Virus record (IMG/VR): IMGVR_UViG_3300009130_000013
Coordinates: 1 to 64,000 of that record
Reading direction: 5' to 3' (one strand)
Source: a virus
Length of the DNA stretch: 64,000 nt
Both the position numbers and the translations under genes were made by a program. Of the stretch, positions 521 through 52,524 are shown piece after piece; the stretch's first letter is position 1, and the number at the start of each line of letters is the position of its first letter. The notes below the pieces were generated by a model. The model did no database searches, had not been told where the DNA came from, and saw only the letters and a list, made by a program, of their open reading frames with translations.

Positions 521-628
521 ATGAAATATATTGATTACGTTTTACAACGAATCAATATTATAGGAAATAAACACATACTAGAATTTCCTATAACACTAGA
601 GTCAATTGAAAGGTTGAGGAAAAATAAA

Positions 629-856
629 ATGAGTATAGAAGCAATACACGTGATAAAGTTTCTGAGCAAACAATTAGACGTAGATGAAAAGCTCGTAACA
701 CCTAATGCTAATCTTATAGATGATTTAGGAGCAGATGATTTCACTATGATTGAAGTTGTAATGGGCGTCGAAAAAGAATTTAATGTAAAAATATCAGACG
801 ATCAAGCTCAAGATATCACAACTGTACAAGATATTATAGACATTATTATTAAATAA
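629..856 (+). CDS. Acyl carrier protein-like protein lacking the phosphopantetheine serine
   Basis: Seventy-five residues, the length of bacterial ACP (about 78), with strong similarity to its helix II and III region: LIDDLGADDFTMIEVVMGVE against the E. coli pattern DLGADSLDTVELVMALE, then an acidic surface and TTVQDIIDII at the end. ACPs carry acyl groups on a 4'-phosphopantetheine attached to the Ser of the DSL motif; here that position is Asp (GADDF), so normal loading looks impossible. I chose the ATG at 629 because it gives the family length and has GAGG about 11 bases upstream; an in-frame ATG at 521, just after the preceding stop, would add 36 residues. It may be a scaffold or decoy carrier rather than a working ACP. 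Confidence 0.75.
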   Translation: MSIEAIHVIKFLSKQLDVDEKLVTPNANLIDDLGADDFTMIEVVMGVEKEFNVKISDDQAQDITTVQDIIDIIIK

Positions 857-4826: not shown

Positions 4827-4849
4827 ATGGTTGGTTCCTTTTATATATT

Positions 4850-4859
4850 GTATTTATTA
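4850..4859 (-). promoter_or_regulatory. T4-type late promoter
   Basis: TAATAAATAC read on the minus strand, followed by a leader with AAGGAA before the fibre start at 4826. Confidence 0.6.
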
Positions 4860-4882
4860 TTTTTAAGATAAGTACATATATT

Positions 4883-5557
4883 ATGATATTCGAAACTTCT
4901 CAAGACACATATAATTTCACTGATTTAAATACTGTAAACAATATAGGTATTAAAATATCTGGTGGACTTGATAGTGCTATTCTTTGTTATATGTTATTTA
5001 AAACTATACACGAACAAAAACTTAATACTAATGTATATATTATAACAACTAATATGATTGGCAAAGCATATCAAGTAGAGTATTCTACTAAGGTATGGAA
5101 ATGGTGCTGGAATAAGTTTGAGAATGTTACGTTGAAAGATCATGTTACTAATGAATGTAACCCCGATAATGAAGACTATGCTGAAGTTCAGAGAAAATTA
5201 TTAGACGAACTTTATAATAACAAAACAATTGACAGGCATTATATGGGTGTTACAGCCAATCCTCCAGAAGAAGTATACGAAACTTTTGACGATATTAAAG
5301 GTGGTGATTGGATTGATGCTAGAGATTCAAATACTAAAAAACCACAAACAAGCAAATCTAAAAGCTGGCATCGACCTTTTGTTAACACAAACAAGGCAGG
5401 TATAAAAGAATTATATGACCAGTTTAATCTATTAGAGCCTGGTTCATTGTTTGATCAAACTAGAACCTGTGAGGAATGGACCAACGACTTTAGTAAGCAT
5501 TGTGGTAAGTGTTGGTTTTGTAAAGAACGCTTATGGGGATTTGGTAAGTTAGATTAA
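4883..5557 (+). CDS. PP-loop ATP pyrophosphatase, QueC-like
   Basis: 224 residues. The PP-loop ATP-binding motif KISGGLDSA sits near residue 26, and the C-terminus carries CEEW...HCGKCWFCKERLWGF, matching the zinc site (C...CGxCxxCxxR) of QueC, which makes preQ0 for queuosine and deazaguanine DNA modification. Phages use QueC homologs to modify DNA or tRNA, but no QueD, QueE, FolE or DpdA-like gene is in the window, so the substrate is uncertain. I moved the start to the ATG at 4883: the upstream hydrophobic extension covers the fibre gene's promoter on the other strand. Confidence 0.75.
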   Translation: MIFETSQDTYNFTDLNTVNNIGIKISGGLDSAILCYMLFKTIHEQKLNTNVYIITTNMIGKAYQVEYSTKVWKWCWNKFENVTLKDHVTNECNPDNEDYAEVQRKLLDELYNNKTIDRHYMGVTANPPEEVYETFDDIKGGDWIDARDSNTKKPQTSKSKSWHRPFVNTNKAGIKELYDQFNLLEPGSLFDQTRTCEEWTNDFSKHCGKCWFCKERLWGFGKLD

Positions 5558-14864: not shown

Positions 14865-16055
14865 ATGTCAACCGAAAAAGCCAAAAAACCTACTTGCTAT
14901 GCCCCATTTTTTAATGTATACTTAAGATCTAGTAGTAAAGAATCGCGTGTATGCTGTACAGCCGGCCAATCACACCACTTGAAAAGCAATGAAATGTCAG
15001 AAGTATTCAATAATCCTACAGCAATTGACATACGAGAGGCCATGCTAAAGGGAGAATGGCACCCGGCCTGCTACGGTTGTTATGAAAAAGAACAATTAAA
15101 TGAGCCATCTGATCGTCAAGTATATAACGACTGGTACACAGAAGCAGTAAAACAAAACAATATAGATCCTAATAACCCACTAGAACTAGAGATGGAAGAA
15201 CCAATATGGGCAGATATTAGGCCGTCTAACTTATGTAACCTTAAATGTCGTATGTGTTATCCTGACAACAGTACAGAAGTGGCCAGAGAACAAGCAGACA
15301 TATTAAAAGATAATAAGGATACATTTCAGGTATTAGAAAAAATACCACTTAATAAGCTAGAGGAATACTCACAACGTAAACACTATACATTACCGGCCCT
15401 TAATAAATTAATTAATATAAAGCTACTAGGGGGAGAACCTACACTACAATCAGAAGTGTTCGATATAATAGATCAATTAGAACCTAATGACCATAGGTTT
15501 ATTAACATTACTACTAATGCTTCTAGCAAACAACAGTTACAAACTATTATACCTAAGTTAAAAGATGTAGCACAAGTTATGTGGAATATTAGTATAGATG
15601 GGGTTTGCGATCATTTCGAATATGTAAGAACACCTGCTAAATGGGACCGGTTCAATGAATGTGTACAGTACTTAAAAGAAACTAAAGTAGCACGACATAA
15701 TACTTTAATTGGTTTCAATTTTTGTGTACAAGCATGGAACTGGGAAAGCGTCCCACTAGTGTTAGACTATTGTGAAAGTATGGCAGGGTCCAGATATGCT
15801 ATTAATATGGTGGACCAGAACCACTTAGGCCTTGCTGTAATACCCTTAGATGCTAGAGAGCGTCTATTATCTACGCTAGAAAAAAAAGGTTGTCGGAGAC
15901 GTGAGACGATGAAAAAATGGTGCCAATCAATCCCATTCCAAGCTGAATTACTACCCAAGTTTTGGCAACATACAGTACTATTAGATCAGCAACGTGGTAC
16001 ATCATTTCCTGAATTAAATCCACTATTAGCTGAATCAATGCTTAAACACCTTTAA
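14865..16055 (+). CDS. Radical SAM protein with N-terminal twitch-like Cys domain
   Basis: 396 residues. An N-terminal Cys block (CYAPFF...RVCCTAG...WHPACYGCYEKE, residues 11-75) looks like a twitch auxiliary cluster domain; then the radical SAM core with CNLKCRMC near residue 124, a GGEPTL motif (LLGGEPT) and SIDGV. Such proteins belong to the twitch-domain radical SAM group; a [4Fe-4S] cluster cleaves S-adenosylmethionine to a 5'-deoxyadenosyl radical. The tail LLDQQRGTSFPELNP is shared with the paralogs here. The substrate is unknown; the twitch/SPASM class often acts on peptides. First gene of the island. Confidence 0.9.
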   Translation: MSTEKAKKPTCYAPFFNVYLRSSSKESRVCCTAGQSHHLKSNEMSEVFNNPTAIDIREAMLKGEWHPACYGCYEKEQLNEPSDRQVYNDWYTEAVKQNNIDPNNPLELEMEEPIWADIRPSNLCNLKCRMCYPDNSTEVAREQADILKDNKDTFQVLEKIPLNKLEEYSQRKHYTLPALNKLINIKLLGGEPTLQSEVFDIIDQLEPNDHRFINITTNASSKQQLQTIIPKLKDVAQVMWNISIDGVCDHFEYVRTPAKWDRFNECVQYLKETKVARHNTLIGFNFCVQAWNWESVPLVLDYCESMAGSRYAINMVDQNHLGLAVIPLDARERLLSTLEKKGCRRRETMKKWCQSIPFQAELLPKFWQHTVLLDQQRGTSFPELNPLLAESMLKHL

Positions 16056-16220
16056 AAATAGATTAATTAATCAATTACTCCTTTATAATAGCAAATTAAA
16101 GCAGTACGAACGATAGTGAGTACTATACGACTCTGTCGTATCTTTACTGTAGTTACTGTAGTTACTACTACTAGCTATAAGTGTTTCGACCGGTAATTCT
16201 TACACACACAGTAAAAAAGG

Positions 16221-16249
16221 TTGACATTCAGAGCAACTCGTGTTATATT
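16221..16249 (+). promoter_or_regulatory. Sigma70-type promoter, extended -10
   Basis: TTGACA, 17 bases, TGTTATATT. The predicted start site is only a few bases before the ATG at 16259. Confidence 0.75.
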
Positions 16250-16258
16250 GTGTACATA

Positions 16259-16486
16259 ATGAATATTGATACTGACGTAAAAAAGGTTAAAGTAACGTGT
16301 ACGGATAACGGTAACTCAGTTGAAGCAGTAGTTGATAGGTTCAGAGAGCATGACTTTATAGATGTTATTATGGCAAATACTAAAGTCAGATTAAAATATA
16401 ACTCTCAGTATGGCAAGGCTTATGTTGGCTCAGCTGTAGGACTTGAGTTTACTGTTAAAGGACCTACTATACAGTTTATAGACTAG
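16259..16486 (+). CDS. Hypothetical small beta-rich protein
   Basis: Seventy-five residues starting MNIDTDVKKVKVTCTDNG, soluble. I placed the start at 16259, because the longer frame from 16181 would span the promoter. Almost no leader. It sits alone between two radical SAM genes under its own early-type promoter. Unknown role. Confidence 0.7.
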   Translation: MNIDTDVKKVKVTCTDNGNSVEAVVDRFREHDFIDVIMANTKVRLKYNSQYGKAYVGSAVGLEFTVKGPTIQFID

Positions 16487-16625
16487 TAGTTTATTGTATA
16501 GCAGAAAAAATTTTAAGGCTCCGCCCTTATATGTGCCGCCGCTCTGGGTCCTAATTATAAGACGTTATATTAACCACGAAAAAATTTTTTTACTCCGTTT
16601 TTATAGGCCGCCGACCACCAATCAT

Positions 16626-16633
16626 TTAAATAC
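16626..16633 (+). promoter_or_regulatory. Late-type promoter abutting start codon
   Basis: TTAAATAC, six bases before the ATG at 16640; no Shine-Dalgarno. Confidence 0.45.
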
Positions 16634-16639
16634 AACACA

Positions 16640-17953
16640 ATGACAATAGACTGTAAATTCCTTGATCATGCTTTAGCTATACGTCCTAATGGAAGGGTGT
16701 TGCCTTGCTGTCGCTATACAGGAGATGAAGAAATACTTACTGATAATAGTGAATATAATAAAGAATTCTTGTTTAGTAGAGCTAAAGAACCTATGAAAAA
16801 AGGTAATTGGGCGTCTGGTTGTGAGAAATGTCACATACAAGAGTCAGCAGGTAATACTAGTATGCGAACAGAGTCTTTAAGGTTGTTTAATGATTTAAAT
16901 ATCTACAATTATCAGTTTATACGCGGTCCTAGACCCAATAATCCTAATATAGATGGTACATTAACGTTCTTAGAGATAATGATAGGTCGTTATTGTAATT
17001 TAAAGTGTCGTATGTGTACACCGGAGTTAAGTACAAGCTGGGACGAGGACATTAATAGAGATAATTCATTAATTAGTGAAATGTTTTATAATCCTAGTGA
17101 CTGGGAAGAGGCTAAGAAGCTACCTAAAACAGTAGATACAATGCTTAACTTAGATAAAGAAGCTTGTAAGGATCTAAACGAGATAAAAATTACAGGAGGT
17201 GAACCCTTTTTATCCGACTATCTTGACGAGTTTCTTCAACATCTAGTAGACTGGGATTTAGCACAAAATATTACATTAGATATATTCACTAATTGTACAT
17301 TTATACCTAAAGAAAAGTATATTAAAAACTTTAATAAGTTTAAAATGGTATTTCTTAATTTAAGTATAGATGGTATAGAAGAACGAGGTGAGTTTATTCG
17401 TAAAAAGAGTGATTGGAAAGCAGTAAGCAGTAATATTAAATGGTATTGCGATTATGCTCTTAATAATGAAAACATTTATGTAACTATAGCAACTACATTG
17501 GTCTTATATAATGTTTATTATTTAATTGAATTAATTAATTGGATTGATAACAATATTCCTGACAATATATTAAATGGACAAAATGAATTAAACTTTCTAT
17601 CGACAAATAAATGTTTTACGCCCACTCATTTAAGCATATACAATTTAAGTGTTGATAAAAAGAAAGAATTAATTAATAAATTAGAAAAAGATTTTAATTA
17701 CATTAATAAAGAAGTTAGCCAAGTAAAAAGAAGTAGTAAATTAGAAGGTGGCGGACAGTGGTCGTGGAATGTATATAGAATAATTAATCAAATTAAAGAT
17801 GATTTATCTAAAGGAATAGATAGTCGTAAAGGCAATAAAGCTAAAATTACTTCATTTAATTCATTTAATAAACGAGAATCTAAGTTAGATAAACTACGAG
17901 ATGAAGATTGGACTAAAGTATTCCCTGAATTAAAGGATTTTTTAAATGACTAG
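16640..17953 (+). CDS. Radical SAM protein with N-terminal twitch-like Cys domain
   Basis: 437 residues. N-terminal CKFLDHAL...GRVLPCCRYTG...GCEKCHIQE (residues 5-70) is the twitch-like block; CNLKCRMC near residue 117; ITGGEPFLS and LSIDGIEERGEF follow, as in the radical SAM TIM barrel. The tail LDKLRDEDW...FPELKDFL is the shared C-terminal signature. The last codons overlap the start of the next gene (8 bases), so it is coupled to the PxGAG protein that follows. The stretch 16487-16639 is non-coding with a GCCGCC repeat. Confidence 0.9.
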   Translation: MTIDCKFLDHALAIRPNGRVLPCCRYTGDEEILTDNSEYNKEFLFSRAKEPMKKGNWASGCEKCHIQESAGNTSMRTESLRLFNDLNIYNYQFIRGPRPNNPNIDGTLTFLEIMIGRYCNLKCRMCTPELSTSWDEDINRDNSLISEMFYNPSDWEEAKKLPKTVDTMLNLDKEACKDLNEIKITGGEPFLSDYLDEFLQHLVDWDLAQNITLDIFTNCTFIPKEKYIKNFNKFKMVFLNLSIDGIEERGEFIRKKSDWKAVSSNIKWYCDYALNNENIYVTIATTLVLYNVYYLIELINWIDNNIPDNILNGQNELNFLSTNKCFTPTHLSIYNLSVDKKKELINKLEKDFNYINKEVSQVKRSSKLEGGGQWSWNVYRIINQIKDDLSKGIDSRKGNKAKITSFNSFNKRESKLDKLRDEDWTKVFPELKDFLND

Positions 17954-18791
17954 GGATGATGTATTCAATAACGTTACATTATACTTGGTAACAATTCCAC
18001 AAGGAGCCGGAGGTGCTTTTTTAGGATATTTACAACGTGTTTATATGGGATTTAAGCCACCATTAGCAGAATCACAATTTCCTAAACTAAACAGATGGGA
18101 TGATGTTAGAGGTGCTTGGGTTGATGTACATCAAGTCTTTGCCAATGACAATGATAGATTTTTTCCATTTAAACTTGATGCTTTAATAGGTCCTCGAGCT
18201 TCAGTAAAAGAAAAGAATAATATATCAAAGAAATATAATGATGCTTTTACTATATGGTGGGATCATATATCTGGAAGAAACTACGAAACACACGATGGAA
18301 TTAATAAATTTATTCCCCCAGAGCTAATTGATGTTGATGAAAATATGATGAATCCACTTGCTGATTTTATCGCAACACAACAAATTCCTAGAACTTTAGC
18401 TGGTAATTTAGGTTACTTCTTTATTCAACATGAATATCTGTATGGAATAAACAAATATTTTAAAAAAGTAGAACACTTACTTACAATTGAATGTGATTTA
18501 GAAAGCCACATATATTGTAACAAATTAAAACGAATTAAAACAGGAATACAGAGTCTTGTAGAAGGTAGACCAGAATGTCATTTCGATAATCAAGCAAGAT
18601 CTAATAAAGAGTTTCCAGCTAAAATTAATATTAACTATAATAAATTCTTTTTTGAACAAGATATGAATGAAATAGAAAAGTTTTTAGTAGGAACACTACC
18701 AATTAATGATGTTAATCAAGAAAGATTAGACCCTATAGTTGATATGATTAAAACATATACAAAATTAAATAAGGAACTTTTAAATGAGTAA
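17946..18791 (+). CDS. PxGAG-motif protein 1 (possible P-loop/sulfotransferase-like)
   Basis: 281 residues. The N-terminal strand-loop-helix LVTIPQGAGGAFLGYLQRVY (residues 14-33) is the family motif PxGAGxxFxGxLQ and resembles a phosphate-binding loop such as the 5'-phosphosulfate loop of sulfotransferases. The end has INYNKFFFEQDMNEIEKFL followed by YTKLNKELL, again like sulfotransferase C-termini (xDYExL...). Both features recur in four other genes of the island (19011, 22183, 24277, 24750). Fold and function are inferences by eye; overlap with the radical SAM gene before it suggests they act together. Confidence 0.8.
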   Translation: MTRDDVFNNVTLYLVTIPQGAGGAFLGYLQRVYMGFKPPLAESQFPKLNRWDDVRGAWVDVHQVFANDNDRFFPFKLDALIGPRASVKEKNNISKKYNDAFTIWWDHISGRNYETHDGINKFIPPELIDVDENMMNPLADFIATQQIPRTLAGNLGYFFIQHEYLYGINKYFKKVEHLLTIECDLESHIYCNKLKRIKTGIQSLVEGRPECHFDNQARSNKEFPAKININYNKFFFEQDMNEIEKFLVGTLPINDVNQERLDPIVDMIKTYTKLNKELLNE

Positions 18792-19014
18792 TTTAGATTT
18801 ACATGGTTATTATGTACATGATGCTTGGATAGAGTTTAAAAGTTTTATTAATGAACAAAAACATTTAAAATACGTTACAGTAATCACTGGGAAAGGAAAA
18901 ATACAAGAAGAATTTCAACATTGGGTTAATACAAATCCAATATTAAAATCCTGCGAGTTACTTCCAACAGGTGGTGCTTATAAAGTATACTATAAAAAGG
19001 ATAAAAACAAATGA
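18784..19014 (+). CDS. Smr-domain protein
   Basis: Seventy-six residues, the size of a stand-alone Smr domain: LDLHGYYVHDAWIEFKSFI at the start (LDLHG motif), VTVITGKGK in the middle (TGxG motif) and a final strand. Smr domains (MutS2 C-terminus, SmrB) cut RNA or DNA, for example on collided ribosomes. It overlaps both neighbours by 4-8 bases and so belongs to the island operon. A role in RNA cleavage is from the family, not shown here. Confidence 0.85.
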   Translation: MSNLDLHGYYVHDAWIEFKSFINEQKHLKYVTVITGKGKIQEEFQHWVNTNPILKSCELLPTGGAYKVYYKKDKNK

Positions 19015-19682
19015 GAGAATTTACATTATACCCACACGGTGGAGGTCGGAACTTTTTAGGTGCTTTACAGGTTGTTATAAGAGGTATGGAAAGTCCTAAA
19101 CAAATCCAGGCTGTAATAGAAGGTCGTAACTTGTTTGACGACACTTATCCACCTGTTAATTTTAATCCTGAGTTTTTTATTCGTACACCTTGGAATAAAG
19201 AATTAATTAGATGCCAAGAAGTATGGATAGAATATTTAAGTAAAAGACGTACACAAGCATCAGCTAAAAAACAAATAATTGATTTATTAAATGAATGTTA
19301 TCAAGGATCATTTCATTTAAAAACAGCATTACCTACAATAAGTCGTTATTCAATTGTTTGTATAGTAGAAAGTCAACTATTACATCAATGGTTAGACCAA
19401 TTAGCAACAATTAAAAAAGATTTAGAGAAATATACTAAAACAAATGTTCATGAGAGTAACTTATGCTTCAGTAACAACTTAGATCTATTACATACATATA
19501 GAGCTGACTGGAGTTTTTCTTATAGCGATATGTTTTTTGAGTTAAATACAACACTACACGAAGACTTCATAAAAAGGACTGAAGATTGTTTCAAAGTTAA
19601 GTCCGCAGTTGACCTTAATACAATTACAGACTTAATCAATAATTATAATGAAAGAAATCATCAAATATTAATATATGAGTAA
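19011..19682 (+). CDS. PxGAG-motif protein 2 (divergent)
   Basis: 223 residues; family motif as LYPHGGGRNFLGALQVVI at residues 5-22 and the C-terminal YNERNHQIL. The middle is shortened and rich in Thr/Lys. It overlaps the Smr gene (ATGA) and the next radical SAM gene (8 bases). Function unknown. Confidence 0.75.
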   Translation: MREFTLYPHGGGRNFLGALQVVIRGMESPKQIQAVIEGRNLFDDTYPPVNFNPEFFIRTPWNKELIRCQEVWIEYLSKRRTQASAKKQIIDLLNECYQGSFHLKTALPTISRYSIVCIVESQLLHQWLDQLATIKKDLEKYTKTNVHESNLCFSNNLDLLHTYRADWSFSYSDMFFELNTTLHEDFIKRTEDCFKVKSAVDLNTITDLINNYNERNHQILIYE

Positions 19683-21006
19683 AACATTTTGCCCAATTCC
19701 TTGGATATTCCAAGCAGTTAGAAATAACGGTGACATAAGAGTATGTTGTCAAGCTAACGTAACGCCTAATCAAGGTGTTGTACGACATTCTGATGGCACT
19801 AGTTATAATGCTGGACGAGATTCATTTGATGAAGCCAAAAATGCTGAATTAATGAAGATAATTCGTAAGAATATGTTAGCAGGTCGCTGGAGTGAAGAGT
19901 GCGGTCGCTGTAAACAAGAAGAAGAAGCAGGATTACAAAGCAGACGCTTGTACGAAAGAGAACATTGGGATTATTCATTTGATCAAGCATTAAAAGAAAC
20001 AGCTATCGATGGAAGTATAACAGTTCGTAATCAATATTACGATTTACGCTTCGGTAATATGTGTAACTTGGCTTGTAGAATGTGTGGACCTACAGATAGT
20101 CATACATGGTATGAGCAATGGTTAGGTTACCACGGTGGAACAGGGTACGAAGATACACACGGTAAAGTTGAGCTTACTCGTAATGCTAAAGGTAGATTAA
20201 CAACTACTGACTACGATTGGCATAATTCAGAAACATTTTGGGAACAAATAGAAAAGAATATTCCTTATATTGAACACGTTTATATGGCAGGTGGTGAACC
20301 TATGATGATTGAACGTCATTATGAATTCCTACAACGCTGTATTGATAGTGGTCATGCTAAAAATATAATGATTGAATATAATACTAATATGACAAGTCTT
20401 CCACCTAGAGTATTAGAAATGTGGAAAGAATTTAAGCAAATAAGAATAGGTGCTAGTATAGATGGAATGGGAGATATGTTAGAATACCAACGTTGGCCTA
20501 TTAAGTGGAGACAAGCTAAAGTTAACCTAGAAAAAGTAGACAACTTACCTGATAATGTTATAGCCTGGATAGCCTTTACAGTTACAGCATATAATATATT
20601 TCATTTACCTGAATTTATGATGTGGAAGTTAAAAGAGTCTGGATATAAAAAGATTAATTCAAGTTCAGCAAAGCCTATTATAACACATCACGTAGCACAT
20701 GGACCTAAACGTGCTAATATTAGATTATTAAATAAAGAATTAAAACAAGATGTACACGAGCATTATGATTATTATAAGAATAAATTAGCAAAAGACGAAA
20801 CAATTGATTCTAATATTAAAAAGAAATTCAATAAAATATTAGATAGTGTAACAAACTATATGGATGCCGAAGACTATTCAGAAAAAATACCTGAATTTAT
20901 TAAGTTTACAAAGTATTTAGACCAAGAAAGAAAACAAAACATACTAATGGTTACACCGCAGTACAAGGAAATGTTTGATGAAAATAGGACCACAGGAACC
21001 AAGTGA
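19675..21006 (+). CDS. Radical SAM protein with N-terminal twitch-like Cys domain
   Basis: 443 residues: CPIPWIFQAV...DIRVCCQAN...ECGRCKQEEE (twitch-like block), CNLACRMCGP near residue 131, MAGGEPMMIE and ASIDGMG. Related by these blocks to 14865 and 16640. The tail KYLDQERKQNILM...P carries the shared signature. A 54-codon ORF begins inside its 3' end. Substrate unknown. Confidence 0.92.
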   Translation: MSKTFCPIPWIFQAVRNNGDIRVCCQANVTPNQGVVRHSDGTSYNAGRDSFDEAKNAELMKIIRKNMLAGRWSEECGRCKQEEEAGLQSRRLYEREHWDYSFDQALKETAIDGSITVRNQYYDLRFGNMCNLACRMCGPTDSHTWYEQWLGYHGGTGYEDTHGKVELTRNAKGRLTTTDYDWHNSETFWEQIEKNIPYIEHVYMAGGEPMMIERHYEFLQRCIDSGHAKNIMIEYNTNMTSLPPRVLEMWKEFKQIRIGASIDGMGDMLEYQRWPIKWRQAKVNLEKVDNLPDNVIAWIAFTVTAYNIFHLPEFMMWKLKESGYKKINSSSAKPIITHHVAHGPKRANIRLLNKELKQDVHEHYDYYKNKLAKDETIDSNIKKKFNKILDSVTNYMDAEDYSEKIPEFIKFTKYLDQERKQNILMVTPQYKEMFDENRTTGTK

Positions 21007-21142
21007 ATATAACGAAGAACTTCTTACAGACGCCCACTATCCTGAAGATGGAATACAAGTAGTGGCTGAATACGACTTTGCTGATGCTCCTGAATGGGCA
21101 ATACCTAGAGAATGGGTGATGAGGAATCAATACGATTGTTAA
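20978..21142 (+). CDS. 54-residue acidic ORF between two radical SAM genes
   Basis: AAGGA lies eight bases before the ATG. The peptide is acidic and aromatic (MKIGPQEPSEYNEELL..., DFADAPEWAIPREW) and ends QYDC. It overlaps the end of one radical SAM gene and stops four bases before the next. Size, place and single terminal Cys would fit a substrate or recognition peptide for the radical SAM enzymes, but there is no leader motif I can name; it may be an ordinary small gene. Confidence 0.6.
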   Translation: MKIGPQEPSEYNEELLTDAHYPEDGIQVVAEYDFADAPEWAIPREWVMRNQYDC

Positions 21143-21145
21143 AAG

Positions 21146-22186
21146 ATGTTTATAGATGTAGATAAAATAAAAGAATTAGAAGTAGAACTTTCTACTTATT
21201 GTAATGCTGGTTGTCCTGGTTGTAGTAGACATTGGTGGGGGACTAGTGATAAATTACCTAATTTAATAGAAGAACACCTTAGTATAGAAACTGTATCATC
21301 AGTAATATCACAAATTCCTGATCCTTCTATCTTAAAAATACAATTATGTGGTAACATTGGTGACCCAATGATGAACCCTAAGGTGTTAGATGGAATTAAA
21401 GAATGGATATTTGATTATAATGTTAAAGCTATTGCTATTGATACAAATGGTGGATTAAGAGGCGAAAGTTTCTGGCAGGAACTAGCTCAAATACCTAGAG
21501 TTTTTGTAACATTTAGCATAGATGGTATGGAAGACACTAATCACATTTACAGAGTAGGTGTTGATTGGAATAAACTGGAACGAAACTTTATAACATTTAT
21601 TGAAAATGGCGGAAATGCTGAATGGAAATTTTTGATATTTGAACACAACAAACACCAAGTTTTAGCCGCAAGAGACCTCTCAAGATATTATGGTTTTACT
21701 AGATTTGTTCCTAAAATGAGTATGAGAGAGCCAATGTCAGCAGTTGGTACCGGCAAATCATTAACTACAAAAGAAGCACAAAATATTAGAAGTGAAAAGA
21801 TTGACAACATAGATCATGGTGAAAATATTAGCTGTAAAGCATTAGATATTAAAAGAATTTATTTAAATGGCGAGGGTAGAATATGGCCTTGTTGTTATAC
21901 AGCACAACGTTACATGAAAAGCCAAGCATTTTATCCTAAACAGTTTCAAGAGAAGAATCCATACCTATTTGGATGGTATGAAAAGGGATTTAATAAAGCA
22001 AAAGATCATAGTTTAAAAGATATATTAAATCACGAAGCCTTTGCTCATATTAAAAGCGAATGGGAAAATAAAATTGATTGTGAATATAAAGTTTGCTGGG
22101 ACGTATGTAAAGGCCAAAGTTGGGAAATGAACAACGACATAGATCAATTTGACCAACTTGGAGCAGACTGGGGTGGTAATCCGTGA
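21146..22186 (+). CDS. Radical SAM protein with C-terminal SPASM-like domain
   Basis: 346 residues. CNAGCPGCSRHW near residue 18 supplies the radical SAM cluster; LCGNIGDPMMNP replaces GGEP; SIDGMED follows. The C-terminus has ISCKALDIKRIYLNGEGRIW-PCC...CEYKVCWDVCKG, a SPASM/twitch-type auxiliary cluster. The phrase FEHNKHQ links it to the radical SAM genes at 38303 and 51226. It overlaps the following PxGAG gene (GTGA). Confidence 0.92.
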   Translation: MFIDVDKIKELEVELSTYCNAGCPGCSRHWWGTSDKLPNLIEEHLSIETVSSVISQIPDPSILKIQLCGNIGDPMMNPKVLDGIKEWIFDYNVKAIAIDTNGGLRGESFWQELAQIPRVFVTFSIDGMEDTNHIYRVGVDWNKLERNFITFIENGGNAEWKFLIFEHNKHQVLAARDLSRYYGFTRFVPKMSMREPMSAVGTGKSLTTKEAQNIRSEKIDNIDHGENISCKALDIKRIYLNGEGRIWPCCYTAQRYMKSQAFYPKQFQEKNPYLFGWYEKGFNKAKDHSLKDILNHEAFAHIKSEWENKIDCEYKVCWDVCKGQSWEMNNDIDQFDQLGADWGGNP

Positions 22187-23130
22187 CACATATATACAAA
22201 CACAGCGTAATTCCTAAAACAATGCCAGAGGAAGAAGTATTTGAAAATGTTACAATATACCTAGTAACGTTTCCAGAAGGTGCTGGCAATTCTTTTATGG
22301 GATATTTACAACAAGTGTATGGTGGAGACTCTGGCTTTAAACCGTTATATGTTGATAAAAATATTTCTTGGTCAGGAAAATTTAAGACTGGTATTACTAT
22401 TTTTAATCTTTTCCCCATGGATAGTTTTTTACACCCTGATGTTGAGGGATTAAAGCCAACAGTTATAGCTCCAAGGGTAAGTATAGGAGGCAATGAAGGT
22501 GACCCTTCTTTAGCAAAAAAAATACAAGACCTTTGGGGTATAAGTTCTACTGTATGGCTTAACGATCATCCTACTGAGAGTCGATCTGAAAGGCGAAAAG
22601 AATGTATGTTTCGATTAGCTCGAATTATAGGTTCTCAAACATTCAAAAAATATAGAACTCTTAACGGAAACATTGGTGCTATATTATACTCTCATTATGC
22701 TCCATACGGAGTTGAAGGTATAAACAAATATTTTAAAAATGTAAAACACTTACTCGCAGTTAATCCTGGTGATGTAGATACAGCAATTTATTGTGAAAAT
22801 TTAAAATACACCAAAAAAAACAATTACTCTACTAATCCAAATGAAAGACAAATACTTGATAAAGCAAAATTTGTAGTAGAAACATACGAAAGTGTTCTTA
22901 AACATAATCCAGCTGAAGTTAATATAGATTATAAGAAGTTCTTTTTTGACAGAGATGAAGACGAAATAAAGAAATTTCTACAAGCTACGATGGATATTGA
23001 AGAATTTGATAACACAAAACTTAATATTGTAAGCGACATGATTAAATCATATACAAAAGTTAATATAGAATTGTTAAAAGACGTAACACTTTCTCCTGAA
23101 TTTCGAGACGTGTTAAGGAATATATCATGA
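22183..23130 (+). CDS. PxGAG-motif protein 3
   Basis: 315 residues, GTG start in overlap GTGA. Closest to the gene at 17946: ENVTIYLVTFPEGAGNSFMG then YLQQVYGG at the N-terminus, IAPRVSI in the middle, GINKYFKNVKHLL later, and NIDYKKFFFDRDEDEIKKFL then YTKVNIELL at the end. Probably a recent duplicate of that gene. It overlaps the next radical SAM gene by four bases. Function unknown. Confidence 0.8.
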   Translation: MTHIYKHSVIPKTMPEEEVFENVTIYLVTFPEGAGNSFMGYLQQVYGGDSGFKPLYVDKNISWSGKFKTGITIFNLFPMDSFLHPDVEGLKPTVIAPRVSIGGNEGDPSLAKKIQDLWGISSTVWLNDHPTESRSERRKECMFRLARIIGSQTFKKYRTLNGNIGAILYSHYAPYGVEGINKYFKNVKHLLAVNPGDVDTAIYCENLKYTKKNNYSTNPNERQILDKAKFVVETYESVLKHNPAEVNIDYKKFFFDRDEDEIKKFLQATMDIEEFDNTKLNIVSDMIKSYTKVNIELLKDVTLSPEFRDVLRNIS

Positions 23131-24284
23131 ATGATTTAAAATGGAGCAATTACGACTTTACTAAAATACCTTATGATGATTTAGTAAGAGTAGGACAACG
23201 TACTATGTTATATCGAGATATGTTTACAGTATCTTGGTTACTAGGACGTTTTTGTAACTATAAATGCTCGTACTGTTGGCCTTATGCTCGGAGTGATAGA
23301 AAAGATCATAGACCGACTCAACTATGTTTACAGACAATAGACGAAATAAAACGGCAGGCAAGAGAACGAGGATTTAATAGTTTCCACTTTAGTTTAAGTG
23401 GAGGCGAACCCACATTTCACCCAGGTTACTTAGATATAATGAAGCACTTGGCTGATGATGTGGGTAATACAAACTTTACTAGTGTACACATGACTAGTAA
23501 TATATCTAGAAATATGAAATGGTTTGAAGAATATGTTAAAATTGTATCATCGTTCCATAGAGCCAGTATTACGGCTTCATACCACAGGGAACACGTTAAC
23601 ACACAAGAGAAAAGAAAAGAATTCGCAGATAAACTTTGCTTTGTCCAAGAACACGACGTCCAAGTCACAATTAACCAAGTCATGGTCCCAGAATGGTTTG
23701 ACGAATTATACGAGGAGTCATTATATTTCCACGGCAGAGGCATTAATGTTACGCTCAAGCCTCAATCAGATCCTACAGCGTCAAAAGTCGTTGAAGGCTA
23801 CACGGAAGAGATGCTTGAGAAGTTACACAACGGAATGCCACAAAGAGCATTCACTGAATCTAAAAATATAAATGTAGTAAGACCAAAACCTCAATTTATG
23901 AGGGCACCAGACCCTATATATAAAAACTTTGATGAGGATAGTATACCACAACATTTTCAAGTTGAATTTAAAGACAGTAAACACAAAGAATGGTACATGG
24001 ACCAAGCAGAAAGGTTTAATGCTTTTAACTTTAACAAATTCACAGATTGGGAGTGTAGTTCAGGTTATCGTAGTATCATAATCAGAGAACCAGACGGCAG
24101 TATAAAAAGAAGTTACAGTTGTATGGATGTTCCACTAGGTAATATTGAAACAGGATTTAAATTGTTCAGTAAGCCTATGAAATGTATTAGCCCGTCTTGT
24201 GTAAGTTCAGCTGATAGTAAGATACCAAAACGTGCCCCTGGAACTAAACTACCACTATTTCCAGGAGACACAACATATGAATAA
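23127..24284 (+). CDS. Radical SAM protein, third type
   Basis: 385 residues. CNYKCSYCWPYA near residue 43, FSLSGGEPTFHPGYLDIMKH (full GGEP motif), TASYHREHV, and a C-terminal Cys group (CSSGYR, SYSCMDVP, MKCISPSCVSS) that may hold an auxiliary cluster. No N-twitch domain. Flanked on both sides by PxGAG genes with short overlaps. Substrate unknown. Confidence 0.92.
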   Translation: MNDLKWSNYDFTKIPYDDLVRVGQRTMLYRDMFTVSWLLGRFCNYKCSYCWPYARSDRKDHRPTQLCLQTIDEIKRQARERGFNSFHFSLSGGEPTFHPGYLDIMKHLADDVGNTNFTSVHMTSNISRNMKWFEEYVKIVSSFHRASITASYHREHVNTQEKRKEFADKLCFVQEHDVQVTINQVMVPEWFDELYEESLYFHGRGINVTLKPQSDPTASKVVEGYTEEMLEKLHNGMPQRAFTESKNINVVRPKPQFMRAPDPIYKNFDEDSIPQHFQVEFKDSKHKEWYMDQAERFNAFNFNKFTDWECSSGYRSIIIREPDGSIKRSYSCMDVPLGNIETGFKLFSKPMKCISPSCVSSADSKIPKRAPGTKLPLFPGDTTYE

Positions 24285-24753
24285 TTTAACAGTTGTACCT
24301 GTAGGAGCAGGTAGTAATTTTATAGGCTACTTACAGCAATATATGAACAAAGGAACATTAGCATCAGTTGATCTTAAAGCAAAAAGAAAAAAGAATTGTT
24401 GGAATGAATATAATATTAATTCAGACGTAGAGTTTTTTATAGATTGCGATAAAGATACATTTACCTGGTGTTATAAGTTAGCTAACATTAAAGAAAATAA
24501 AAAGATGGCTAAACAAAATGAAATTAACAAGTCATGGGATGACTATTTAGAAACTAAAGTAGAATATAGTTTAAAACTTACATCTTTTAACTATCTTGAT
24601 ATATTTGAAAGAGCAGATCCTAAAATTTGTGAAGAGTTTTTACGAAAATTATACACTAGTTCTAAACCTTTGTATCCTACGTTCAAAATAGATAATGCTA
24701 TTAATATGATTAAACAATATAACAAACATAACAAAGAAATATTAGCAAGATGA
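24277..24753 (+). CDS. PxGAG-motif protein 4 (minimal form)
   Basis: 158 residues, the shortest member: VVPVGAGSNFIGYLQQYM at residues 6-23, FFIDCDKDTFTWCYKLANIK in the middle, and a C-terminal YNKHNKEIL. The start was set at 24277 because AGGAG precedes it and it overlaps the upstream stop. The middle segment recurs in the next gene (LFMDCTWERFKWCYLLAFFK), so the two are close relatives. Confidence 0.8.
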   Translation: MNNLTVVPVGAGSNFIGYLQQYMNKGTLASVDLKAKRKKNCWNEYNINSDVEFFIDCDKDTFTWCYKLANIKENKKMAKQNEINKSWDDYLETKVEYSLKLTSFNYLDIFERADPKICEEFLRKLYTSSKPLYPTFKIDNAINMIKQYNKHNKEILAR

Positions 24754-25745
24754 ATGATGTAGCACATCCTAAATATGAAAGATTACAAGCATATAAAAAT
24801 ACATTTGCTAGTATAGAAGATTGGAATGAATTTGTAGGGAAACTAGGTTTAATAGAATTACAAAATATTACCGAAGAGCTCTGGTTATATTTGTTAGAAA
24901 ATAACGAATACAAAGCATTTAACAGTCTTCACAAGCAAAATCAAGCAAAGATAGATGTATTAGATTTTTATTGGAATGTAATACCAACTGGTGCTGGCAG
25001 TAGTTTTATAGGTGCTCTACAATCATATCTATTGTTTAACTATGAAGTACCAGATCCTAATAAACGAAAAAATAACTTATGGGACGACGAGTATGGTACT
25101 AGAATGACAATGAACTATCCTCAAGTTGAGAACAAAATAATTAAAGGTAATAGTGACTATCAAGACAAAATAGTATCTTCAGAAAGAATATTTCAAAGAT
25201 TATTTAACGGGTATGAAACTTGGTATACGTTATTTGAACAATATTATTCTACCCTAACAAGTACTATGACTCATAACGCTCAAAACTTTCGAGGGGCTGA
25301 AAAGGTATTTGTAGAATTTACTGTACACAATTATCTTTTATTATTTGAATTGTTTGGTAATTCTAAAATAAATCTGTTTATGGATTGTACCTGGGAAAGA
25401 TTTAAATGGTGTTATCTTTTAGCATTTTTTAAACATGAAGAAAAGGGAATAAACCCTGAATACAAAGTATCTGCTACTAGAAGAGCATGGTACTGTAAAA
25501 GGGCATGGGAAATATATAAAATAACAAAGCAGTATCACAAACCATTAATCACAATTGACTATGAATTACTTTTTATACATCAAGATGAGGATACTATTAA
25601 AAAACTTATATATGAAACACTACAAAGAGACCCTACTGATAGGCAAATAGAATATTTAGGCAAACATTTAAATATGTATACAAACAGAAACAATAAAATA
25701 ATGGAAACTATCCCAACAAAATTATGGGATAAATTTACAAAATGA
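24750..25745 (+). CDS. PxGAG-motif protein 5 (with N-terminal extension)
   Basis: 331 residues. About 75 residues of helical extension precede the motif NVIPTGAGSSFIGALQSYLL; then LFMDCTWERFKWCYLL, ITIDYELLFIHQDEDTIKKL and YTNRNNKIM. Overlaps both neighbours by four bases. As for the family, function is unknown. Confidence 0.8.
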   Translation: MNDVAHPKYERLQAYKNTFASIEDWNEFVGKLGLIELQNITEELWLYLLENNEYKAFNSLHKQNQAKIDVLDFYWNVIPTGAGSSFIGALQSYLLFNYEVPDPNKRKNNLWDDEYGTRMTMNYPQVENKIIKGNSDYQDKIVSSERIFQRLFNGYETWYTLFEQYYSTLTSTMTHNAQNFRGAEKVFVEFTVHNYLLLFELFGNSKINLFMDCTWERFKWCYLLAFFKHEEKGINPEYKVSATRRAWYCKRAWEIYKITKQYHKPLITIDYELLFIHQDEDTIKKLIYETLQRDPTDRQIEYLGKHLNMYTNRNNKIMETIPTKLWDKFTK

Positions 25746-37670: not shown

Positions 37671-38310
37671 ATTTAAAAAATGGACATATATAATCTTAGG
37701 ATTTATATTTGGATTAATATTAACATTTGTTGTAGGAACATTTTACCCTAACTTTTATGTTGTATCAAAATTACAACAACAATTTGATGATAAGATTCAA
37801 TCTGTTTGGGAAGACTTTGGTATAATAGAACCTGCTATAGAATATTCAAACAATAACGAATTTGTTTTATCTGTTAGTAAATGTATTCAATGGATAAATT
37901 TAGGCGTTAAAACACACGAAAGAATAGATAGAGAAATTATCATAGCAATGGCTGTTCTTGAAACAGGATACGGAAAGAGTAGATTTGCTAACGAAGGTAA
38001 TAACTTATTTGGTATTAGAACTTGGGATGATGAAATACCACAACTAAAACCATTAGGAAATCCTGACGTTGTTTGGGGTGTAAGAGTATACAAAACCAAG
38101 TGCCAATCAGTTCAAGATATGATAAGTACTATTAACAGACATCCAGCCTATGAACTGTTTAGAATTGAAAGAGCAAAACAGTTAGAAACAAATTCTATTA
38201 ACATTAATAAACAAATCGATCTTCTAAACAAATGGAGCACCAACCCTGACTACACAAAACTAATTAAGCAAAAGGTTATAAAGATTAAAAAAATATTAGA
38301 GAATGGGTGA
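37648..38310 (+). CDS. Membrane-anchored Bax/glucosaminidase-like muralytic enzyme
   Basis: 220 residues: N-terminal signal anchor (KKWTYIILGFIFGLILTFVV), then REIIIAMAVLETGYGKSRFANEGNNLFGIRTWD (two adjoining segments), the Bax/mannosyl-glycoprotein endo-beta-N-acetylglucosaminidase signature with catalytic Glu in LETGYG. Cuts peptidoglycan glycan chains; the anchor suggests a SAR-type lysin or host-wall remodelling. Start at 37648 has GAGG seven bases before it. Confidence 0.85.
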   Translation: MAGMMKRKFKKWTYIILGFIFGLILTFVVGTFYPNFYVVSKLQQQFDDKIQSVWEDFGIIEPAIEYSNNNEFVLSVSKCIQWINLGVKTHERIDREIIIAMAVLETGYGKSRFANEGNNLFGIRTWDDEIPQLKPLGNPDVVWGVRVYKTKCQSVQDMISTINRHPAYELFRIERAKQLETNSININKQIDLLNKWSTNPDYTKLIKQKVIKIKKILENG

Positions 38311-39553
38311 ACCGATTTATAGTTTAAAAAATCTCAACACAATCCAAGTAGAACTTACAGCCAATTGTAATGCTATGTGTCCTGCTTGTGACCGGTGGGT
38401 TAGAGATACCGATAATAAAGATAAAACACTAAAGGTTGGTGACTTAAACCCTACCATTAAACCTTACCAAGGTAGTAAAGGACATTTTACTTGGGAGGCT
38501 TGGCAAAATTTATTCAATAAAGAAACATTAGCAGACTTAAGAATGATCACCTATAATGGAACTTGGGGTGATGCTATTTTACATCCTGATATATTTTCGT
38601 ATACACAACATATCATTGATACAATAAAAGAAACAGATAATAAATTTTGTGCTCTTGAAATTAGTACCAATGCTGGTTTACATTCTACAGATTGGTGGAG
38701 AGAATTAGCAAACTTAAACAAACAATTTTATCAGCCATGGAGTAAAGTTATATTTTGTATAGATGGACTTGATGATAAAACCCATCAACTATATCGTAGA
38801 GCAGTTAAGTGGGAAAAGGTTATGGAAAATGCCAAAGCATATATAGACGAAGGTGGTAGAGCTGTTTGGCAATGGTTACAATTTGATCACAATAAACATC
38901 AAACAGAACAAGCAGAGGAATTAGCAAAAGAATTAGGGTTCGCTGAATTTTGGTTAAGAGGCAGTCGAGGTGAACGTTTAGCAGTACAAAAAACAATAGC
39001 AAAATTAGGTGACGACGATACTGATATCGGAAATGTAGACGTAGCCTTGTATAATAGCAAAGCAGTAAACAGACGTGTTAAACATAATGAAGCGAAAGAG
39101 GGCTCTATATCGTATATTACAGATAAGGATAAAGTATCAGTTAATACAAAAGAAATAACATCTAAATATAAGAATTACGAAGATTATAGAGAGAATACAA
39201 CGATTTCTTGTTCCTGGGGGAACAAAGGAAAAATCAACGTGGAGTTCAACGGTTTAGTCCATCCATGTTGTTACGTTAACCACTATATGAATAACTTCTG
39301 GAGTAAAGAACTAGATGGTCATTTAGAGGGTAGCGAATATGAGATTATGACAGATAGTTATGTTGGTCATTGGAATAATTTGAACCATAACAATCTACAG
39401 AACATATTATCTCATAACTTTTATATGAACGACCTGGAGCAATCTTGGAAAAATAAGACAGGTGATTTAGAACTTCCAAGACTAGGTGTTTGTGTAAGTC
39501 ATTGTGGTGAAGGCCACGAAAACATCAGAAGTTATGATGTAAGCAAACTGTAA
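38303..39553 (+). CDS. Radical SAM protein with C-terminal SPASM-like domain
   Basis: 416 residues. CNAMCPACDRW near residue 23; TYNGTWGDAILHP in place of GGEP; FCIDGLDDKTHQLYRRAVKW; FDHNKHQTEQAEELAKELGF; C-terminal ISCSWGNKGKINVEFNGLVH-PCC and VCVSHCGEG (auxiliary cluster). A clear paralog of the gene at 51226 (same DDKTHQLYRR and FDHNKHQ). Overlaps the muralytic gene by eight bases and is followed by ferredoxin and Fe-S carrier genes. Substrate unknown. Confidence 0.92.
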   Translation: MGEPIYSLKNLNTIQVELTANCNAMCPACDRWVRDTDNKDKTLKVGDLNPTIKPYQGSKGHFTWEAWQNLFNKETLADLRMITYNGTWGDAILHPDIFSYTQHIIDTIKETDNKFCALEISTNAGLHSTDWWRELANLNKQFYQPWSKVIFCIDGLDDKTHQLYRRAVKWEKVMENAKAYIDEGGRAVWQWLQFDHNKHQTEQAEELAKELGFAEFWLRGSRGERLAVQKTIAKLGDDDTDIGNVDVALYNSKAVNRRVKHNEAKEGSISYITDKDKVSVNTKEITSKYKNYEDYRENTTISCSWGNKGKINVEFNGLVHPCCYVNHYMNNFWSKELDGHLEGSEYEIMTDSYVGHWNNLNHNNLQNILSHNFYMNDLEQSWKNKTGDLELPRLGVCVSHCGEGHENIRSYDVSKL

Positions 39554-39564
39554 AGGAGAATATT

Positions 39565-39723
39565 ATGGATTATGTTACAGATAGAATGAAAGAAAAAGCA
39601 TCGCACGGTGGAGCAGGCTTAATCGCTATTGGAGTTTTAGTTTTAGTAGGCGGTAGTTTGGTACATTGGGCGGCCTGGGCCGCGATTGCCTATGGTGCTT
39701 ATCAAGTATTAAGCAAAGGCTAA
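39565..39723 (+). CDS. 52-residue membrane protein (holin-like)
   Basis: AAGGAG before the ATG; charged start, then a long Gly/Ala hydrophobic stretch (residues 15-48) that could form one long or two short helices. Holin-like in size and pattern only. Confidence 0.6.
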   Translation: MDYVTDRMKEKASHGGAGLIAIGVLVLVGGSLVHWAAWAAIAYGAYQVLSKG

Positions 39724-39731
39724 TTTTAACT

Positions 39732-40043
39732 ATGAGTACGTTCAAATGTATTACAAGATCGGGACGTGAATTTGATGTTGAGTACAATGAGAACGATAAC
39801 ATCATGGTGGCACTATATGATCACTTCAAAGGCGAACCTTGGGGAGACTGTGGAGGGTGTTGTATATGTGCCACCTGTCATGTTGAAATTATAAAAGGGT
39901 ATCCTAATATACCACACGAAGATGAAGAGGATACCTTAGAAGGGTCTTTTGAGAAGGTTGACAATAGCCGACTAGGTTGTCAATGTCCATTAAAAGGCAT
40001 AAAAGATAAGTCACTAGTCGTGAAAGTTCATCATATAGACTAA
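39732..40043 (+). CDS. [2Fe-2S] ferredoxin, adrenodoxin type
   Basis: 103 residues. Ligands Cys40, Cys46 and Cys49 in WGDCGGCCICATCHVEI and Cys83 in LGCQCPL follow the adrenodoxin/Fdx pattern (C-x5-C-x2-C...C). Such ferredoxins carry electrons for Fe-S assembly and P450s. It sits between a radical SAM gene and an A-type carrier; giving electrons to the radical SAM enzymes is an inference. Start set at 39732, short of the upstream frame. Confidence 0.9.
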   Translation: MSTFKCITRSGREFDVEYNENDNIMVALYDHFKGEPWGDCGGCCICATCHVEIIKGYPNIPHEDEEDTLEGSFEKVDNSRLGCQCPLKGIKDKSLVVKVHHID

Positions 40044-40077
40044 TAACGATAAGTATTATTAGTTAGGAATTATTAAA

Positions 40078-40410
40078 ATGATAGAAGTAACACAAAAAGC
40101 AAAAGACTATCTACTACAAGCTACAAACAGAAATGATCAACAATATGCTACTTTTTCTATAAAAGGTGGTGGTTGTAGTGGATTTACCTACGAATGGGAA
40201 TTTGCTAACGAAATAAAAGATCCTAAAGAATGGATTGAAGTACAATTAAGCGATAAATCAGATAAAAAATTAATGATAAATCGTCTCGCTGAAATGTATG
40301 TTTTAGGTAGCACAATAGACTATGTAGAAGAATTAGGTGGTTCCTTCCTAGCAATTAAGAACCCACAAGCCAAATCAAGCTGTGGCTGTGGCGATTCATT
40401 TGCTGTTTAA
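40078..40410 (+). CDS. A-type iron-sulfur carrier (IscA/ErpA/HesB family)
   Basis: 110 residues with the three invariant Cys: Cys33 in GGGCSGFTYEW, Cys102 and Cys104 in SSCGCGDSF. These proteins pass Fe-S clusters to [4Fe-4S] enzymes. Together with the ferredoxin it forms a likely cluster-supply pair for the many radical SAM proteins here. CGATAAGTATT upstream may be a late promoter. Confidence 0.92.
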   Translation: MIEVTQKAKDYLLQATNRNDQQYATFSIKGGGCSGFTYEWEFANEIKDPKEWIEVQLSDKSDKKLMINRLAEMYVLGSTIDYVEELGGSFLAIKNPQAKSSCGCGDSFAV

Positions 40411-51225: not shown

Positions 51226-52524
51226 ATGTTTTTAGACCCAACGAAACTCAGAAGAATCACGATAGAAATTACAGCAAACTGTAATAGTTTCTGCCCTCAA
51301 TGTTTGAGAAGAGTATCAGGTGATATTCCACATTTAAATTTAAAAGAAGGTGATGTTAATCCAGCAATTAAAGTAGGTAGTTCTGGTAATATGCCTATGT
51401 CTACTATTAAGAATATCTTTACTCCTACAGTAATGGGTGGACTTAAAACATTAGACTTAAATGGTTCGTTTGGTGACGCTATTAATCACCCAGACATGAT
51501 AGAGATACTTCATTATATTGCTGATGTAAGTGATAGTGTAAAGTCACAGAGATTAAAGAATGATCGTAACACTAGAACAGACCTATGGGTTAGTACTAAC
51601 GGTGCTATGAGAAACAAAGAGTTTTGGACTGACCTTGGGCATTTAGCAAGTCAACGATACAATCCTAACAACTCAGAATTAATATTTGCTTTAGATGGAA
51701 CAGATGATAAAACACATCAACTATATCGTAGAGGTTGTTCATACGAAAAAGTTTTAGAGAATGCTCGTTACTTTATGGAGGCTGGCGGCAAAGCTATATG
51801 GCAAATTATTGAGTTTGACCACAACAAACATCAAATAGAAGAAGCAAAAGAACTAGCAAAGAAATTAGGATTTGTTAGAATTGATGTAAGACGTAGTAGA
51901 TGGGCTGAAAGAATTAGTAATCAATTAAGAGAAAAAGCAATTAAAACAGGTGTTGTAAGTGTAAAAGAAAAAGAAACAGACTTCGACCATAAAGGATTTG
52001 GTAACGTTAAGAAAAAGAAGTTTGAAAACAAATCACATAAGCCACCTACAGATCATTACAAGTCAATGGAAGAAAAAGCTAAGAAAATTGTTGTAGAAAA
52101 GTTTGACAATAGTATGGATGACTATGCCAACAACTGTAACATTTGGTGCTCATGGGGTAATGAAGGAAAGTTACAAATTGAATGGGATGGTCGTGTACAC
52201 GTTTGTTGTCACTTTACAGCCTATTTTGCTCGTTCATGGCGTAAAGATATGGCTAACCCTGATGGTAGCCCTAATAATACATACCATAACAAGTATGTGT
52301 CGAACTATGATGAGAAATGGAATTATACCAGCCATCATACATTAGAAGATGTGTTAGGACATAAGTTCTTTCAAACGGATTTACAGGATAGTTGGAAAAA
52401 CCGTACTGACGATCCAATTAAACCTAGAATGGAGATCTGTGTAGATAACTGTGGTAGTATCGTACAAGAGCTCAGAGATAAAAAAGAAGATAGAATATCT
52501 TTAGACGGAGGTAAAACAACATGA
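51226..52524 (+). CDS. Radical SAM protein with C-terminal SPASM-like domain
   Basis: 432 residues. CNSFCPQCLRR near residue 19; DLNGSFGDAINHP; FALDGTDDKTHQLYRRG; FDHNKHQIEEAKELAKKLGF; a basic insert of about 60 residues; C-terminal NCNIWCSWGNEGKLQIEW, VCCHF and ICVDNCG. Paralog of 38303. It overlaps the next gene by four bases. Substrate unknown. Confidence 0.92.
   Translation: MFLDPTKLRRITIEITANCNSFCPQCLRRVSGDIPHLNLKEGDVNPAIKVGSSGNMPMSTIKNIFTPTVMGGLKTLDLNGSFGDAINHPDMIEILHYIADVSDSVKSQRLKNDRNTRTDLWVSTNGAMRNKEFWTDLGHLASQRYNPNNSELIFALDGTDDKTHQLYRRGCSYEKVLENARYFMEAGGKAIWQIIEFDHNKHQIEEAKELAKKLGFVRIDVRRSRWAERISNQLREKAIKTGVVSVKEKETDFDHKGFGNVKKKKFENKSHKPPTDHYKSMEEKAKKIVVEKFDNSMDDYANNCNIWCSWGNEGKLQIEWDGRVHVCCHFTAYFARSWRKDMANPDGSPNNTYHNKYVSNYDEKWNYTSHHTLEDVLGHKFFQTDLQDSWKNRTDDPIKPRMEICVDNCGSIVQELRDKKEDRISLDGGKTT

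Follow-up and report, generated by a model that had tools for sequence, protein, structure and literature searches.

We tentatively read the stretch from 14865 to 25745 of virus record IMGVR_UViG_3300009130_000013, where five radical S-adenosylmethionine (SAM) genes (rSAM-A to rSAM-E) are interleaved with five genes of one family (PxGAG1 to PxGAG5), as a variant, specific to one lineage and carrying PxGAG, of a radical SAM island that is widespread in T4-like phages and may tailor a surface glycan or peptide. The window analyzed spans bases 1-64000 of the 93,195-base record and comes from a marine bacterial virus; the phage identity given to the carrier in the initial annotation is borne out by T4-like DNA polymerase, clamp loader, ligase, PhoH and tail fibre genes. 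All ten open reading frames (ORFs) assigned there to the two families are indeed open, and gene order is largely kept in three related contigs (3300006947_000007, 3300012954_000057 and 3300025676_000084), giving four arrays. The genes of the island are:

14865..16055 (+): rSAM-A, N-terminal twitch radical SAM enzyme; NF033640 at 229 bits, orthologues at 46-53% in two relatives
16640..17953 (+): rSAM-B, N-terminal twitch radical SAM enzyme; NF033640 at 252 bits, clear 47% orthologue in the sole relative that also has PxGAG1
17946..18791 (+): PxGAG1, used in the homology tests; AlphaFold2 model at pLDDT 82 and pTM 0.82
18784..19014 (+): stand-alone Smr domain protein; PF01713 at E 5e-9, 36.6 bits against a cut-off of 25.7
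19011..19682 (+): PxGAG2, with PHGGG here and HGAG in orthologues; in all four arrays, before rSAM-C
19675..21006 (+): rSAM-C, N-terminal twitch radical SAM enzyme; NF033640 at 380 bits, more than 45% identical in 37 loci
20978..21142 (+): conserved 54-amino-acid protein, a possible precursor peptide or partner; 75% identical in 3300012954_000057, same place
21146..22186 (+): rSAM-D, radical SAM enzyme with a SPASM-like C-terminus; phrog_21308 at E 2.5e-20, PF04055 and SPASM below cut-off
22183..23130 (+): PxGAG3, 38% identical to PxGAG1; also in 3300012954_000057
23127..24284 (+): rSAM-E, hyper-conserved radical SAM enzyme; tblastn matches in viruses, homologues in Bdellovibrionota metagenome-assembled genomes (MAGs)
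24277..24753 (+): PxGAG4, a short copy of 158 amino acids against 221 in 3300012954_000057
24750..25745 (+): PxGAG5, with an N-terminal extension; orthologues in all four arrays

The initial annotation took the five PxGAG proteins for a single unrecognised family sharing the PxGAG motif. The motif does not hold throughout, the 19011 protein having PHGGG in its place, but the family stands. Profile comparison, set beforehand as a possible refutation, links all groups and argues against chance resemblance: leave-group-out profiles recover members of all the other groups (E about 1e-3 to 1e-21; the profile of a single odd copy was weaker), and by hhalign the four main groups match one another at 97-99.5% probability. 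Apart from the start Met, the residues strictly invariant across 18 PxGAG proteins are Gly and Gln within the loop motif, Leu and Lys of a helix further on, and Asn close to the C-terminus. The members tested had no family match in Pfam, PHROGs, NCBIfam or PADLOC, in keeping with an unrecognised family.

Single-protein scans with PxGAG3 and PxGAG1 found no relatives. A profile scan returned five loci, and profile and pattern scans together place PxGAG in five viral contigs beyond that of the window, so that its distribution rests on six contigs, most of them fragments. Four of these carry multi-radical-SAM arrays with a largely shared order, rSAM-A, [rSAM-B with PxGAG1], PxGAG2, rSAM-C, rSAM-D, [PxGAG3], rSAM-E, [PxGAG4], PxGAG5; 3300025676_000084 starts just before PxGAG2. 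The other two are short related contigs with a lone PxGAG gene (L009:2940-3605 and L008:3454-4116) near clamp-loader and, from a reading of the sequence, baseplate-like genes; radical SAM genes were not detected on either. In cellular genomes, the PxGAG profile had no match in nine rSAM-E-bearing genomes, in 369 genomes of one class or in 385 of another, and a genome scan with PxGAG patterns gave none that was confirmed, all of these searches lacking a positive cellular control. PxGAG has so far been found in viruses only. In three of the four arrays each phage has four to six copies; this multiplicity suggests that a product, for example a surface structure, is being diversified.

The distribution of rSAM-E is far broader. 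A tblastn scan gave 580 viral stretches at E <= 1e-3, the best 80 of which are 68-90% identical; a search of 50,697 phage records gave no match. In the neighbourhoods of 78 rSAM-E genes the median same-strand run has five radical SAM genes and 50 runs have at least five, while PxGAG is present in just four of the 78. Cellular rSAM-E loci at 59-66% identity are mostly from Bdellovibrionota MAGs, several on long contigs; two more loci, 75-82% identical and found in other MAGs, have the appearance of phage contigs. Across phages and Bdellovibrionota the enzyme is at least 58% identical, with more than 120 invariant positions in 15 sequences. In the rSAM-E tree, ten Bdellovibrionota rows split from the viral rows at 100/99, and one long-branched Acidimicrobiaceae row is placed among the viruses. 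The tree includes three PxGAG-bearing rows, which make up a single clade (100/99). Because rSAM-E is far more widespread and the PxGAG-bearing rows form one clade, the PxGAG genes seem to have joined an older radical SAM island in one lineage. Set against the neighbourhood check proposed with the initial annotation, the picture is mixed: the island recurs in three other contigs, but rSAM-E mostly occurs without PxGAG and two PxGAG genes stand alone. In the Bdellovibrionota MAGs (loci L109-L119), rSAM-E adjoins twitch radical SAM genes and glycosyltransferase-like 'VDGD' proteins without a Pfam match.

The claim that no described phage system resembles this island is right only in part. Radical-SAM-rich T4-like phages had been reported: the environmental genome TARA_ERS488813_N000010 has 12 radical SAM genes and iron-sulfur (Fe-S) genes (Nishimura et al. 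2017, PMC5332604), and it resembles the present phage in being T4-like, with many radical SAM genes and an Fe-S A-type carrier, as well as in a paaD-like gene seen by sequence in 3300012954_000057. The available part of that paper gives gene counts and does not describe the PxGAG family, the operon or a partner gene. Pelagimyophage host-recognition clusters are distinguished by radical SAM cassettes in a hypervariable region with tail fibres (PMC7029224); the available part of this source proposes no function for the cassettes and has no PxGAG. Published descriptions of the PxGAG family or of the hyper-conserved rSAM-E were not found. With hundreds of candidate loci in uncultured viruses and none in 50,697 phage records, rSAM-E is a common enzyme of environmental phages without known function, and its bacterial homologues offer a tractable route to the substrate.

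All five enzymes carry CNxxCxxC and match PF04055 significantly (rSAM-D below the cut-off), placing them in the radical SAM superfamily. Against the curated cut-off of 170 bits for N_Twi_rSAM (NCBIfam NF033640), a family named by domain with no stated function, rSAM-A, rSAM-B and rSAM-C are members; rSAM-D (58 bits) and rSAM-E (40 bits) fall outside it and are radical SAM proteins by their Pfam and NCBIfam core matches.

We next consider the predicted fold of PxGAG. The first AlphaFold model, of a PxGAG protein of the window (pLDDT 82, pTM 0.82), had low-confidence loops, so a compact relative was also modelled (pLDDT 79.7, pTM 0.80). In a Foldseek search of the PDB, the top five matches of the compact model were the glycopeptide-antibiotic sulfotransferases Teg12/StaL (probability 0.97-1.00, E 0.002-0.013, but TM no higher than 0.39-0.44), followed by P-loop kinases and other sulfotransferases. 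The window model points weakly in the same direction (tyrosylprotein sulfotransferase, E 0.15), so that the best fold matches of both models are sulfotransferases dependent on 3'-phosphoadenosine 5'-phosphosulfate (PAPS), a group that includes Teg12, StaL, TPST and SULT. PxGAG differs from these enzymes at the donor site. No assignable column conserves the Lys/Arg of the 5'-phosphosulfate loop (at position 19 of PxGAG1, in our reading of the register, the 18 proteins have Q,E,V,T,H,A,E,Y,H,A,E,H,M,Y,Y,P,H,Y), a conserved Arg was not seen at the expected 3' PAPS site, and sequence profiles give no link, with an hhalign probability of about 0.1% against Sulfotransfer_2 and Sulfotransfer_3. Because the donor-loop residue is unconserved and the profile comparison negative, we call PxGAG sulfotransferase-like in predicted fold, not a member of the PAPS sulfotransferases. 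That PxGAG proteins are instead P-loop kinases seems improbable: nucleotide kinases rank after sulfotransferases in both fold searches, and the family has no conserved Walker A lysine and variable residues after GxG.

The layout of the island fits its expression as a unit. As first noted, almost every junction from 16640 onward is an overlap: 10 of the 11 junctions overlap, nine by 4-8 bases (spacings -8, -8, -4, -8, -29, +3, -4, -4, -8, -4, -4), compared with overlaps of 1-20 bases at 23 of 105 same-strand junctions in the rest of the genome. The products are probably made together, by coupled translation. The further proposal that each enzyme has its own PxGAG partner fails as a one-to-one rule, since relatives of rSAM-D and rSAM-E occur in dozens of arrays without PxGAG; both PxGAG4 and PxGAG5 follow rSAM-E. 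For two enzymes pairing may still apply: rSAM-B and PxGAG1 are found together in both contigs that have either, and PxGAG2 lies directly before rSAM-C in three of the four arrays, short genes intervening in the fourth.

Other rSAM-E arrays give an indication of the kind of pathway involved. They hold two Pfam sulfotransferases, 2-oxoglutarate oxygenases, nitroreductase family members and PP-loop proteins, and in four loci a protein with a sulfotransferase-like 'NRTGSTV' loop at its start lies directly after rSAM-E; aminotransferase-like, AMP-ligase-like, SGNH-like and glycosyltransferase-like proteins were recognised by motif. From this company the island looks tailoring or biosynthetic. By eye, small Cys-rich proteins beside radical SAM genes in other arrays (L102:6181-6672, L068:8658-9008, L054:7366-7695) resemble stand-alone SPASM/twitch domains, as if some of the enzymes there were split.

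In the explanation that we tentatively favour, the island would be an operon whose tailoring enzymes are made by coupled translation, set in a tail-fibre-bearing part of a T4-like genome. rSAM-E and rSAM-C would be two core enzymes making a conserved radical modification. The variable radical SAM proteins and the sulfotransferase-fold PxGAG proteins would add to the same acceptors or to related ones, with PxGAG as a partner that binds the acceptor or transfers a group and has given up the usual use of PAPS. The outcome would most likely be a modified surface molecule, a glycan or glycopeptide of the host envelope or, less likely, of the tail fibre, that may change receptor properties or block superinfection. 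Consistent with this, the island is conserved in four contigs, the best fold matches of PxGAG are sulfotransferases, with glycopeptide-antibiotic enzymes as the top five of the compact model, other rSAM-E arrays contain the sulfotransferases, NRTGSTV proteins, oxygenases, nitroreductases and PP-loop proteins described above, a tail fibre gene lies at 3366, Fe-S supply genes lie near the island, and host-recognition clusters have been reported to differ in their radical SAM cassettes (PMC7029224). Several observations weigh against it, besides the negative profile comparison and the unconserved donor-loop residue. No glycosyltransferase recognised by Pfam was found next to the operon, and Pfam has no match for the glycosyltransferase-like proteins that recur in other arrays. 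The PxGAG genes that stand alone, close to baseplate-like genes, suggest that the family can act apart from radical SAM chemistry. RNA could be the target instead, given the Smr gene, confirmed by its score above the cut-off, and the PP-loop genes. Modification of RNA or tRNA would be in line with the Smr gene, the QueC-like PP-loop gene at 4814 and the eight tRNA genes in the window, but the Smr gene was not seen in other arrays, relatives having other genes in its position, and the radical SAM genes look like those of twitch/SPASM enzymes and unlike known RNA methylthiotransferases; we consider this explanation very unlikely.

Peptides are frequent substrates of twitch/SPASM radical SAM enzymes, and the island enzymes could modify a small peptide (the 54-amino-acid protein or an unlinked one) or ribosomal or virion proteins, with PxGAG as recognition partners. 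The 54-residue ORF beside rSAM-C, picked out in the initial annotation, is conserved in two phages (codon position 1/2/3 changes listed as 8/6/15), and oxygenases of the Asp/Asn hydroxylase type occur in other arrays. Yet no such gene was detected in two arrays of the four or in the many other rSAM-C/E loci compared, there is no repeated precursor, and none of the island radical SAM proteins reached a recognised peptide-maturase cut-off, leaving a peptide or protein substrate somewhat unlikely. A resemblance of the ORF ('ADGPEW') to some twitch radical SAM proteins was set aside as short (E 0.06-0.08).

The strong conservation of rSAM-E fits the expectation for an invariant small substrate, as if a radical SAM core built a diffusible small molecule or nucleotide analogue that accessory genes vary. 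The nitroreductase and the motif-only aminotransferase-like and AMP-ligase-like genes of other arrays agree with such a compound. No complete known pathway is present, however, and viperin (NF038283) matches the generic core domain alone, at 43.7 bits at best against a cut-off of 180; we regard this as unlikely. A bolder reading is possible but somewhat doubtful, in which T4-like phages run a common and so far undescribed radical SAM pathway, its core enzyme rSAM-E makes a new modification shared with Bdellovibrionota, and virus-only PxGAG proteins of sulfotransferase fold, with a rebuilt non-PAPS active site, were duplicated in one lineage to diversify the product.

Further features of the window are:

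16221..16249 (+): TTGACA-17-TATATT, a possible promoter preceding the operon, 11/12 consensus matches; weak, because the region shows no clear excess of such sites over shuffles
16259..16486 (+): protein of 75 amino acids, encoded after rSAM-A and before the operon; two relatives have a similar small ORF in the same place, no significant family match
38303..39553 (+): radical SAM gene outside the island; PF04055 above cut-off
39666..40410 (+): ferredoxin (39666-40043) and Fe-S A-type carrier (40078-40410); PF00111 and PF01521 above cut-off
51226..52524 (+): further radical SAM gene; PF04055 below cut-off, product sharing 36% identity with that of 38303

The T4 late-promoter motif TATAAATA is absent from the island; the motif is that of T4 and may not be used by this phage. 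The ferredoxin and A-type carrier could supply Fe-S clusters to the radical SAM enzymes, and a sequence in the related contig 3300006947_000007 (9865-11085, L011) likely encodes an IscS-type cysteine desulfurase. The QueC-like PP-loop protein (4814-5557, PF06508 above cut-off) belongs to a family present in 39 of the compared loci or contigs, with three apparent copies in 3300006947_000007. Finally, window positions 521-856 encode, by eye, an acyl-carrier-protein-like product (LIDDLGADDFTMIE) in which an Asp replaces the usual phosphopantetheine serine.

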